The position numbers and the translations under genes were made by a program. 38,360 bases of DNA from a virus. This document shows positions 513-36,692 of this stretch, one piece after another; position 1 is the first letter of the stretch; each line of letters starts with the position of its first letter. The notes below the pieces were generated by a model that ran no database searches, was not told the DNA's origin, and saw nothing but the letters and a program-made list of their open reading frames with translations. The stretch covers positions 1-38,360 of the IMG/VR virus record IMGVR_UViG_3300027791_000057; one strand, given 5' to 3'.

Positions 513-725
513 ATGGCTGACAATAAAATTAGCCATGAGGTGATCTTGCTCAAGCTTGAACAGATCCATACCGTTGTGTCTAAAAATACAGATGACATTG
601 ATAGCTTAAAAAAGCAGATGGCTATGGGTTCAGGTGGTATAAAAGCCGTTTTCGTAATTGGTGGATTCGTAGCCCTAGTTCTAAGTATAGTAAAACTAAT
701 TACAACATTCAAGATAGGAACATAG
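513..725 (+). CDS. Small membrane protein, XhlA/holin-accessory-like
   Basis: This 70-residue protein has a polar coiled-coil-like amino-terminal half (residues 5-37, heptad-like spacing around ILLKLEQIHTVV and DDIDSLKKQ). A single hydrophobic segment follows at about 44-65 (IKAVFVIGGFVALVLSIVKL). This resembles the XhlA/hemolysin-type lysis accessory proteins of phages, which are short with a coiled coil and a carboxy-terminal membrane helix. It opens the lysis cassette, directly after a hairpin that overlaps its ribosome site. The ATG at 513 is chosen; an ATG at 508 runs into an early stop. The function is inferred from size, topology and neighbours. Confidence 0.5.
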   Translation: MADNKISHEVILLKLEQIHTVVSKNTDDIDSLKKQMAMGSGGIKAVFVIGGFVALVLSIVKLITTFKIGT

Positions 726-1347: not shown

Positions 1348-1820
1348 TAGCAGAAACATTAGCTGGAATTGCTCTTTTTAAAGCAAGCGTTGAAGGAATT
1401 AAAAGCGTTATCGGTACTGCCAATGACGTTAGTAGTTTTGCCAAACACATAGACGGTATGTTTACCGCTCAAACTCAAGTAAACAAAGACCGCTATAAAC
1501 GTGGCGGCATCAAAAACTTAAAGGATCAATTTAATATTGGTAGCGTAGCTGAAGAAATGATTGACGCTAAGTTAGTCGAAGAACAAATGCGTGAGATTGC
1601 TACCATGATTGACTTTCGTTTTGGTTTTGGAACTTGGACTTCTATACTAACAGAAAGAGCCAAGCGCATACAGGAAATGAGAGCCGAACAAAAACAAATT
1701 GCTCTGGAAAAGAAACAGAAACAAGATGAAATTATAGAAGTGGTTATGGTTATTGGTGCTGTAATTTTAGTGGGCGCTGTACTTATAGGGGGTGTAACTA
1801 TATGGCTGAAGTTATCCTAG
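1344..1820 (+). CDS. Coiled-coil protein with carboxy-terminal membrane helix
   Basis: This 158-residue protein has a hydrophobic amino terminus (AETLAGIALFKASVEGIKSVIG), a charged middle and a long Lys/Gln/Glu-rich helix at 110-133 (ERAKRIQEMRAEQKQIALEK). A strong membrane segment at about 135-156 (VVMVIGAVILVGAVLIGGV) ends the protein. Marine phages often carry similar proteins beside holins, but I do not know an established function. The ATGA overlap with the gene before and the 19-base overlap with the gene after show tight coupling in the lysis cassette. Candidate roles are a second holin component, a spanin-like linker or an envelope protein. Confidence 0.65.
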   Translation: MIAETLAGIALFKASVEGIKSVIGTANDVSSFAKHIDGMFTAQTQVNKDRYKRGGIKNLKDQFNIGSVAEEMIDAKLVEEQMREIATMIDFRFGFGTWTSILTERAKRIQEMRAEQKQIALEKKQKQDEIIEVVMVIGAVILVGAVLIGGVTIWLKLS

Positions 1821-2014
1821 AAAAAATGCTAAGATGGAGCATCCTACCAAGGTTTATGATGTTAGTATCTACGCTAATGTCATGGCGTTGCGCTGAATGG
1901 TTTATGGAATTACCCGCGCCAATGGCTAGTCAATCCGCTTTTGTCAGCGTAGTCATGGGCGTTATGACAGGAATTTTTGGCATATGGATGGGACACGAAA
2001 GCAGAAACAATTAG
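1802..2014 (+). CDS. Small two-helix membrane protein, holin-like
   Basis: This 70-residue protein has two hydrophobic segments, about 12-31 and 44-63, joined by a short polar stretch (WFMELPAPMASQSAF), and a charged tail (GHESRNN). Size and topology fit a second, class II-like holin or antiholin. Proteins with the 'ProAla..QSAFVSVV.G..TG.F.IWM' look occur in marine phages near lysis genes; this is recalled similarity, not a search result. It is the last gene of the rightward unit, and its stop overlaps the endolysin stop by four bases in convergent orientation. Confidence 0.55.
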   Translation: MAEVILEKMLRWSILPRFMMLVSTLMSWRCAEWFMELPAPMASQSAFVSVVMGVMTGIFGIWMGHESRNN

Positions 2015-34832: not shown

Positions 34833-35656
34833 TAGTATCTACTCCAAATGTCTCGAACCTGAAACTGAACTTCAGCAACGTTTTCGGGCGGGTTACATGA
34901 GGCGGCGAAAGCCATAGCCTCGCCCATTGCGTAGTCAATTGATTCACCTCGTTTGCGAATAGCCACTAATATTTTAATCAATCTTTCATGGCGTTCACCC
35001 TTACCCATACCGTAACGCAAAGTACCAGTGTACTTGCCCTGATAGGTGGATGGCTTGTAATCTTTGTAGTCTACAACAATTCTGGTAGGTCTTTCTAACT
35101 TCAGACCGTCCCTAATTTCATCCATCTTATAAGGTGACCTAAGTCCCTTTTGGCTGTGTACCTTAATTGGATAAGGCGCTTTCTTATGGTGAAAGAAGCC
35201 AGCAACTCGCATGACACGCGGTAAATCTTTAACCACAGGATCAGAATTGTACTTTTTAGCTAACGCTTCCTGATATAAATTAAAGGTAGGCAAAGGCATA
35301 TCGTCAACCATCCAATAGCAATGGTACTTGCCTTCGCTTGTGTTAACTACAATGTGCGGCTTTAGTTCAAACGTATCAGGCAAAGGCGTACCGTCCAAAT
35401 CAATAAAGACAGCGCGAACCTTTTTAATATGCTTGGTTGTCCTTCCAAGACCATTAGTCTCATTCACTGTAAAGAATACACCTGCGCCTTTGCGGTTTAA
35501 TGCCGAAAGTTCCTCAAAGTGTTCTTCTAACGTGCCATGAAACTGTCTAGTTAATGACCTGTTAATACCTTTATCGCAAAAAGTCTGAAAACTATGACGG
35601 TGACCAAATGCCGCAATGAATTGATGGTAATGGGTAAGGTGGTTATACTTTATCAT
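34832..35656 (-). CDS. Primase-like protein (RepB/PrimPol-type)
   Basis: This 274-residue protein starts at the ATG preceded by AGGTGGGG; an upstream in-frame ATG at 35680 would add eight residues and overlap the previous gene more. Motifs: VFFTVNETNG (60-69), VFIDLDG with D86 and D88 as candidate metal ligands, NTSEGKYHCYWMV (105-117) with the histidine of primases of this type, and LPRVMRVAGFFHHK (145-158). The carboxy-terminal helical part (RHERLIKILVAIRKRGESID) resembles a PriCT-like region. It probably makes primers for host polymerase, as no phage DNA polymerase is present. Confidence 0.8.
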   Translation of the reverse strand: MIKYNHLTHYHQFIAAFGHRHSFQTFCDKGINRSLTRQFHGTLEEHFEELSALNRKGAGVFFTVNETNGLGRTTKHIKKVRAVFIDLDGTPLPDTFELKPHIVVNTSEGKYHCYWMVDDMPLPTFNLYQEALAKKYNSDPVVKDLPRVMRVAGFFHHKKAPYPIKVHSQKGLRSPYKMDEIRDGLKLERPTRIVVDYKDYKPSTYQGKYTGTLRYGMGKGERHERLIKILVAIRKRGESIDYAMGEAMAFAASCNPPENVAEVQFQVRDIWSRY

Positions 35657-36029
35657 TAGTTCCCCACCTAACTTCCGCACCCTTTTTGCCAGCCACAGAA
35701 CGCCTTGCTCTGTGAACTGCCTGTTCTTTGCGTTCCTCTTCTGCCTGTATGCAAAGCAAAAATGTTGTTGCGTCTTTTGTTTTCACCTCTTGGAACAAAT
35801 GGCTAATCTTAGGCCAAATGTTATTGATCTTGTTTTCAGTAACGTTGCACATTTTTGACATTATTTCAAAATCATACGGCACTTTGAAACCACGCCAGCA
35901 ATGACAGTAAAGTAAAAGATACGCACCCTGTTCTTCTAACGTCATACGCATACGGGATGGGTCACTAATCCAATCGCTAGCGTAGAACTGAAACGCTGGT
36001 GACTGTTCGTTTGTTGTGCTGTTTCTCAT
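35643..36029 (-). CDS. DUF1376 (YdaU-like) replication protein
   Basis: This 128-residue protein has the family signature FQFYASDWISDPSRMRMTLE at 13-32, then GAYLLLYCHCW and a winged-helix-like SKMCNVTENKINNIW. The basic tail ends in GAEVRW. DUF1376 proteins are found as first genes of phage and prophage replication modules and are thought to act in initiation. Here it follows an operator-controlled promoter and lies next to repeat clusters that could be its binding sites. AAGGA lies upstream of the ATG. The carboxy terminus overlaps the primase start. Confidence 0.85.
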   Translation of the reverse strand: MRNSTTNEQSPAFQFYASDWISDPSRMRMTLEEQGAYLLLYCHCWRGFKVPYDFEIMSKMCNVTENKINNIWPKISHLFQEVKTKDATTFLLCIQAEEERKEQAVHRARRSVAGKKGAEVRWGTNDKV

Positions 36030-36050: not shown

Positions 36051-36092
36051 TTAACTAAACTTAATGTTACTGTACTTTGGTTAACCTGTCAA
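36051..36092 (-). promoter_or_regulatory. Leftward replication promoter with two operators
   Basis: On the minus strand a consensus TTGACA (36092-36087) and TAACAT (36069-36064) are 17 bases apart. Operator E (TGTACT-TT-GGTTAA, 36071-36084) fills the spacer and operator D (TTAACT-AA-ACTTAA, 36051-36064) covers the start region. Their centres are 20 bases apart, about two helical turns. Repressor binding would block both open-complex formation and escape. Confidence 0.7.
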
Positions 36093-36135
36093 CTTAGTCT
36101 GTTGCTCCCCCCTCTTAATCTTGCTTGAAGATGCA

Positions 36136-36165
36136 GGTGAAGCTGAAGGTGAAGGTGAAGTAGAA
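36136..36165. repeat. Five tandem hexamers (GGTGAA-like)
   Basis: GGTGAA, GCTGAA, GGTGAA, GGTGAA and GTAGAA follow in direct succession just upstream of the leftward replication promoter. This could be a protein-binding array of the origin or a residue of slippage. Confidence 0.5.
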
Positions 36166-36258: not shown

Positions 36259-36352
36259 TGGTGGTGTTGGCAAGACTTGAACTCGCATACCTGTTACACC
36301 AAACCTCATTCGAAAGGCTGTAACAGTGTTCTAACCGTTGAACTACAACACC
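36259..36352 (-). tRNA. tRNA gene with abnormal, expanded anticodon arm and encoded CCA
   Basis: On the minus strand a 7-bp acceptor GGTGTTG/CAACACC is followed by TA and a D arm GTTC-AACGGTTA-GAAC. The T arm is GCGAG-TTCAAGT-CTTGC with a normal T loop. A discriminator A and genomic CCA (36261-36259) end the 94-nt gene. The anticodon stem CTGTT/AACAG is intact and even extends to 7 bp (CTGTTAC/GTAACAG). However, 26 nt instead of 7 lie between the 5-bp stem strands, and no standard U33-anticodon register is found. The amino-acid identity cannot be assigned. It may be a tRNA mimic, a decayed tRNA or a gene with an inserted segment. Confidence 0.65.
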
Positions 36353-36393
36353 AAAAAAATAAGGGGATGCTAGGATAAGGAAACCAGCACCCC
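36353..36393 (-). terminator. Terminator after the repressor gene, abutting the tRNA
   Basis: On the minus strand GGGGTGCT (36393-36386) pairs with AGCATCCCC (36371-36363, one bulged base), followed by TTATTTTTTT ending at 36353. The tRNA begins at the next base. Repressor transcripts should mostly end here, so the tRNA would depend on read-through. Confidence 0.65.
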
Positions 36394-36473
36394 CTCAGTC
36401 GGGGAGAAAGACAAGTACACACAATTTTTAGCCTAGATCTCAACCATTGCCCTTATTTTATGGTTGTAGTGAC

Positions 36474-36692
36474 CTACCCCGCGTGTAAGGGGGCAATCTG
36501 TAAATCAGGTCTAAGGTATTCTACCTCGTAATCACCTAGCTTGGCAATCTGAAAAGCACGATATGGCGGTATTACATGCCATTTGCTTACGGCGGGGTGG
36601 CTTATGCCCAGCATACGGCTTAGATTCTTTCCCCCATATCGGGAAACAATTTCTACTCTACGCTCAATAGCCAATTCATAATTATCTAACAT
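36474..36692 (-). CDS. Cro/YdaS-like helix-turn-helix regulator
   Basis: This 72-residue protein has a helix-turn-helix at about 22-41 (KNLSRMLGI-SHPAVSKWHV), followed by IPPYRAFQIAKL and the ending VEYLRPDL. That A-V-S-K-W, I-P-x-x-R-A and L-R-P-D pattern is typical of Cro/YdaS-type phage regulators. It is the only clear transcription factor in the genome. Its own promoter carries two copies of the 14-bp operator and the facing promoter a third, so autoregulation and control of the other units is the natural reading. It lacks a CI-like peptidase or oligomerisation domain, hence is more Cro-like than CI-like. Whether the phage is temperate cannot be told. Confidence 0.85.
   Translation of the reverse strand: MLDNYELAIERRVEIVSRYGGKNLSRMLGISHPAVSKWHVIPPYRAFQIAKLGDYEVEYLRPDLQIAPLHAG

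Follow-up and report, generated by a model that had tools for sequence, protein, structure and literature searches.

The tRNAs encoded by phages are commonly interpreted as aids to translation or as spares against host tRNases, and the C4 RNA of phages P1 and P7 is known for its antisense role. C4 is a substrate of RNase P (PMC11143913), and mutations in the anticodon loop allow phage tRNAs to escape anticodon nucleases (van den Berg et al. 2023, PMC10264068). Insertions, anticodon stems, and introns are not mentioned in the main text of the latter study (PMC10264068).

The element described here, located in the genome of a marine phage, resembles ordinary phage tRNAs in being a phage gene with a tRNA body and CCA and in the connection between anticodon loop and host tRNases. 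For the phage tRNAs of van den Berg et al., decoding through an ordinary arm is assumed, while this element displays an 8-bp stem with a 20-nt head. With C4 it shares being a small phage RNA, but it forms a complete tRNA cloverleaf, matched the tRNA model alone in Rfam, and no antisense target was found for it. Archaeal intron-containing pre-tRNAs also have additional nucleotides in the anticodon loop; in contrast to these, the element has neither a bulge-helix-bulge nor a U33 beside a 5-bp stem, and it belongs to a bacterial phage. tmRNA is likewise tRNA-like with a replaced anticodon region; however, neither ARAGORN nor Rfam reported a tmRNA here, and the 19-nt insert is too short to hold a reading frame for a tag. 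In the open-access literature, we found no description of phage tRNAs with extended anticodon arms.

Structure of the tRNA-like gene

The window, i.e., the whole stretch of DNA analysed, is a complete virus record of 38,360 bases with a podovirus-type gene set, including genes for terminase, head-tail connector, capsid, large structural and tail proteins, helicase, and primase. A preliminary description had noted an odd tRNA gene in it, and this observation was confirmed (Table 1). The element scored 49.4 bits with the Rfam tRNA model RF00005 (gathering cut-off 29), and with an E-value of 8.5e-8 for the whole window the match is far above chance. Read from G1 (36352) to A76 (36259) on the minus strand, its layout is GGTGTTG TA GTTCAACGGTTAGAAC A (CTGTTACA GCCTTTCGAATGAGGTTTGG TGTAACAG) GTAT GCGAGTTCAAGTCTTGC CAACACC A CCA, and folding resulted in a cloverleaf with a minimum free energy (MFE) of -32 kcal/mol (z -2.96; 2 of 200 shuffled sequences were equally good). 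Judged from the sequence, all tertiary partners are in place, namely the Levitt pair A15-U48, G18-U55, G19-C56, U8-A14, and U54-A58. Thus, the body is intact as described before, from a cloverleaf above the cut-off to A73 and an encoded CCA. ARAGORN with default settings nevertheless missed the element and reported 0 tRNAs in the window.

The sole abnormal part of the cloverleaf is the anticodon arm, which comprises 36 nt vs. 17 nt in a normal tRNA. Its extended stem had been given as 7 bp, but CTGTTACA and TGTAACAG form 8 bp. The loop of 26 nt reported before is correct if counted past the usual 5 bp, whereas the unpaired part beyond the 8-bp stem has 20 nt; the suggested inner pairing of AGCCT with AGGTT was largely seen in the MFE structure. 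A class II tRNA with a long variable arm was rejected, since the variable region has just 4 nt and the arm starts at position 27, and a check by eye of other registers giving a 7-nt loop revealed no pairing.

Table 1. Coordinates of features in the window and of similar elements on other contigs.
Feature	Position	Strand	Evidence or remark
Cro-like repressor gene, upstream of the tRNA-like gene	36474-36692	-	Pfam P22_Cro
Terminator-like hairpin and T7 run, tail of the cro transcript, abutting G1	36353-36397	-	-22.7 kcal/mol, z -4.2
tRNA-like RNA, entire gene with encoded CCA, 94 nt	36259-36352	-	Rfam RF00005, 49.4 bits; fold
Acceptor stem, 5' strand (GGTGTTG)	36346-36352	-	7 pairs with 36263-36269
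D arm (GTTCAACGGTTAGAAC)	36328-36343	-	4 pairs; G18 G19, A14, A15, and A21 all present
Extended anticodon stem, 5' strand (CTGTTACA)	36319-36326	-	8 pairs with 36291-36298; 5/8 double-changed yet paired in L004
20-nt loop (GCCTTTCGAATGAGGTTTGG)	36299-36318	-	inner hairpin CCT/AGG possible
Extended anticodon stem, 3' strand (TGTAACAG)	36291-36298	-	pairs with CTGTTACA
T arm (GCGAGTTCAAGTCTTGC)	36270-36286	-	5 pairs, one G-T; TTCAA loop
Acceptor stem, 3' strand (CAACACC)	36263-36269	-	pairs with 5' strand
Discriminator A73 and encoded CCA	36259-36262	-	sequence
Sigma-70-like promoter of the replication block (TTGACA-17-TAACAT)	36064-36092	-	match to consensus alone
Primosomal-type protein gene, downstream, gene 1 of the replication block	35643-36029	-	DUF1376 (below cut-off), phrog_3992
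L319, tRNA-like	563-649	+	anticodon arm 29/29 identical to 23S rRNA; also L320, L330, L333
L391, tRNA body with replaced arm			6+6 pairs, fold z -4.5
L328, tRNA body with replaced arm			7 pairs, 9-nt loop
L383, L358, L339, L292, L319 group			further virus-contig tRNA bodies with replaced arm
Lactobacillus (pro)phage arrays	L477 2171-3475; L480 1814-2082; L487 854-2779; L343; L484; L488; L469
L478 (Bacteroides phage p00), tRNA-like	1767-1850		unusual anticodon arm; a MuA-like transposase gene lies downstream

Relatives of the phage and paired changes

A search with the helicase yielded the relatives L002, L004, and L005. Across 720 bases around the element, L002 is 99.9% identical to the window, the single change being located in the T loop. 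The contigs L004 and L005, whose helicase is 80% identical to that of the window, harbor a diverged tRNA-like element in the same location, directly past the T7 run of the cro terminator, with the layout GCTAATG TA TTTTAATGGTAGAAT A (TTTGTAGG TTTTTTTCCGAACA CCTACAAA) AGAT GTGGGTTCAAATCCCGC CATTAGC A CCA. The L004 version (fold z -4.0) has an extended anticodon stem of about 8-9 bp and kept the CCA. An assembly error can therefore be dismissed, as a near-identical copy in L002 and a diverged version in L004/L005 lie at the same place, with the arm extended in each.

In a single comparison, covering the two distinct versions of this phage group, 8 of the 15 pairs of the acceptor stem and anticodon arm were changed on both sides between the window and L004 with pairing retained: 3/7 in the acceptor stem (pairs 2, 4, and 5), 3/5 in the ordinary anticodon stem (27, 29, and 30), and 2/3 among the extra pairs (2 and 3). 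A further double change affected pair 52 of the T arm, and pair D10-25 of the window was lost in L004. The double changes among the extra pairs argue that these are maintained like ordinary pairs. In body similarity, the two versions ranked 16 of 691 in a comparison with ordinary phage tRNAs, which makes common descent likely, albeit short of proof; if they were acquired separately, their common place and design would represent convergence.

Using the Rfam model on 113 related virus records, the element was detected solely in the records of L002, L004, and L005, and one distant relative carried three ordinary tRNAs. Thus, more than 100 related phages are without it, among them the close relative L003, in which the cro terminator is present and the tRNA absent. 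A search for more members with a degenerate T-run pattern returned the known ones alone. With its carriers confined to one clade, the element is best described as an accessory gene of that clade. Phage tRNA genes frequently decay, and the gene is missing in most relatives, which would fit a tRNA gene that is decaying and received an insertion by chance. We nevertheless consider such decay very unlikely, because no damage is seen in the body, its tertiary contacts, or the CCA, and double changes preserve the extended stem in L004. Nor is the element degraded in all relatives, as L004/L005 retain the body, CCA, and extended stem.

Neither the window element nor the L004 version shows the 5-bp stem, 7-nt loop, and U33 of a decoding tRNA; the loop position 33 beside a 5-bp stem is occupied by C in the window and by G in L004. 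The 8-bp stem, the 20-nt loop, and the missing U33 disfavor ordinary decoding, and the window RNA, in agreement with the preliminary description, is very probably unable to decode. A tRNA could in principle become functional once a short intron has been spliced out of its anticodon loop: ARAGORN with introns allowed fitted a "tRNA-Pro(tgg), 17-nt intron" to the window element, and archaea have short tRNA introns, many of which were recovered by the pattern scan described below. However, the two versions have no bulge-helix-bulge but an unbroken stem of 8 pairs in the window and 9 pairs in L004, U33 is absent in both, the ARAGORN fits disagree between them (TGG/17 vs. AAC/9), and the phage genes are of bacterial-phage type. 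To our knowledge, splicing of such short tRNA introns is not known in bacteria, and the insertion is too short for self-splicing; a group I intron, which needs a catalytic intron of at least 200 nt, was rejected on the basis of 19 extra nt and no Rfam intron match. We thus regard the intron-like insertion proposed earlier as highly improbable. The attachment-site remnant suggested alongside it is disfavored as well, since a scan against PHROGs identified no integrase among the 30 proteins of the window and the two halves of the tRNA are both complete and base-paired.

Genomic neighbourhood

The tRNA-like gene is located between a cro-like gene and the replication block in a lambda-like gene order of cro, terminator, and replication genes. 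Hairpins were found at the matching place in L003 and L004, and the fold energies of the terminators were -22.7 (window), -19.1 (L004), and -19.3 kcal/mol (L003). In the window version, the T7 run contacts G1 with a spacer of 0 nt. The element had been reported to adjoin a terminator and to have no separate promoter, which proved true and is common to both versions and to many similar elements elsewhere.

Such an arrangement could point to tRNA punctuation, in which the tRNA-like structure would serve as a cut site giving read-through transcripts a uniform 3' end, and any arm that folds would be tolerated. The 0-nt gap between T run and G1 in both versions and the lambda-like order would fit. 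Against this stand the absence of the tRNA-like gene from most relatives and the 8 arm pairs, which would not persist under free variation. Moreover, a promoter of its own appears to serve the replication block, so that the tRNA-like gene would not be required as a leader. We therefore consider punctuation quite unlikely.

Two further conserved stretches were observed in this region. The stretch CTAGGYTAAAARTTGTRTGT, located past the cro stop codon and ahead of the terminator (36400-36450), is conserved in the window, L003, and L004, and thus kept even without the tRNA-like gene; it might serve antitermination or regulation. At 36115-36165, upstream of the genes for replication, there are repeats in which a CTTCACCTTCACCTTCAGCTTCACC-type sequence precedes CAAGAT; they occur at the same place in most relatives and possibly represent an origin.

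Similar elements in other phages

Virus contigs and one genome set were scanned for tRNA D and T arms spaced beyond a normal anticodon arm. In the genome set, archaeal tRNAs, for which short introns are to be expected, predominated over a few bacterial cases, and the virus contigs revealed several unrelated tRNA bodies in which the arm is replaced (Table 1). The L319 group consists of four large phage contigs (67-264 kb) from four metagenomes, each with the element behind a terminator-like hairpin. The 29-nt match of its arm carries a 23S annotation and corresponds to what we take, by sequence and in E. coli numbering, to be helix 89 near the peptidyl-transferase centre. A sense copy of rRNA would be expected of a mimic.

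Lactobacillus (pro)phages harbor arrays of tRNA-like units, in which a near-constant body carries variable inserts of 33-50 nt in place of the anticodon arm. Carriers include Lactobacillus phage Sha1 with three units, which have no annotation in its record, phage zrk29-2, Lactiplantibacillus prophages, and other records. The arrays comprise up to 5 units per about 2 kb, and several adjoin ordinary tRNAs. Between L469 and L488, the loop TTTACACATADAATTACCTCCAAAG is kept and the stem covaries. The inserts are G-poor (11%), and anti-Shine-Dalgarno stretches are slightly more frequent than in shuffled sequences (10 of 1000 as high); the reverse complement of the L469/L488 insert resembles a Shine-Dalgarno sequence with a start codon.

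A stable hairpin ending at most 15 nt from the 5' end was detected in 6 of 10 families, or in 7 of 10 with an A/T-rich hairpin found by folding. The same rule gave 78 of 458 for lone phage tRNAs of the ordinary kind and 11% for random places. This association was noticed after some of the cases had been seen and is a lead rather than a test.

Other unusual phage tRNAs were noticed as well. Elements of the p00 type also occur in L337, L382, L387, L417, and L431, in some records annotated as tRNA-Arg, and several are immediately preceded by a hairpin like CCCGxAAAGACGGG. A large family of class II phage tRNAs (L342, L346, L348, L361, L371, L446, L457, L467, L468, and others) has UAU as its apparent anticodon (codon AUA), and most members share the variable-arm loop CCAGATTA; it was also found on contigs binned as Thermoplasmata and Obscuribacterales. 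L292, L306, L316, and L322 with the variants L293, L314, and L332 have a 5-bp anticodon stem and a loop of 12-13 nt, the L292-type tRNA being part of a large phage tRNA array. Gordonia phage Smoothie (L495, 1-87 and 351-431) carries neighbouring "tRNA Undet" genes, whose anticodon arms fold abnormally.

Search for a target or source of the payload

A tRNA-scaffolded antisense RNA would be released by RNase P and, similar to C4, shut off translation by pairing of its loop with the ribosome binding site of an mRNA of the host or a competitor phage. The Lactobacillus arrays argue for this reading with their near-constant body and variable inserts, and G-poor inserts with anti-Shine-Dalgarno stretches, together with the L469/L488 insert, favor it for these units, for which C4 is the nearest precedent. 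For the window element, the loop is structured, and the longest antisense match to its own phage was 10 nt, which is within the range of shuffled sequences. A duplex scan of the start regions of the window and the L005 phage revealed no gene in common as a target. For two of the Lactobacillus inserts, no exact target was found in 251 Lactobacillaceae genomes and phages; one place matched with 2 mismatches. Altogether, we rate an antisense function of the window element as unlikely.

The payload of the window yielded no match in E. coli genomes and nothing beyond weak matches of 22-24 nt in phage records, and neither it nor the L004 payload matched 16S, 23S, or 5S rRNA, where L319 alone gave a strong match. 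For lack of a convincing match in these sets, we name no decoyed molecule.

Proposed function

The intact body combined with the rebuilt codon-reading arm implies a role other than decoding. Our preferred reading, held tentatively and with somewhat less than even confidence, is that the window element is a functional, non-decoding tRNA-scaffold RNA, which is released by RNase P and displays a payload hairpin, most likely as a decoy. Transcription from the cro promoter would pass the terminator and enter the tRNA-like gene, host RNase P would cleave between the T run and G1, and the usual 3' maturation of tRNAs would leave the encoded CCA, setting free a presumably stable L-shaped RNA. In this product, the 7-nt anticodon loop would be replaced by an 8-bp stem carrying a structured head of 20 nt. 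Since this payload would not fit the ribosomal decoding site, the RNA most likely acts as a binding partner. Our guess is that it acts as a decoy for a host factor attacking or handling an RNA hairpin, e.g., a defence-system RNase cutting tRNA or rRNA.

Of the options offered in the preliminary description, the mimic or decoy survives as the best one, in line with a body and an extended arm that are both maintained at the same place in the diverged relative, and the intron and attachment site are disfavored. The structured head, the sense copy of rRNA in L319, and the missing antisense match together favor a decoy or mimic for the window element. Decoy and antisense uses would be compatible if the tRNA body were a mere carrier, and the payloads found elsewhere, a 23S copy and possible antisense inserts, need not have one common function. 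It is conceivable, if on balance doubtful, that phages use a general carrier, i.e., a cassette of hairpin-terminator and tRNA scaffold with a swappable payload arm, stabilised and processed by the tRNA enzymes of the host and aimed at the host or a competitor. Its payloads would include copies of rRNA helices, anti-Shine-Dalgarno loops, and structured decoy hairpins, with the window element as one member and the Lactobacillus (pro)phages as carriers of whole arrays.

The occurrence of the window architecture in a diverged relative, together with similar arms in unrelated phages, suggests that the tRNA body carries other RNA hairpins. If this is general, phages would have a class of small RNAs that annotation conceals as "tRNA" or "tRNA-Undet" or leaves unlabelled. 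The wider class, if real, would be of more interest than the gene of the window alone, and the idea is testable in isolated phages such as Lactobacillus phage Sha1. Such RNAs could show which hairpins are attacked by host defences.
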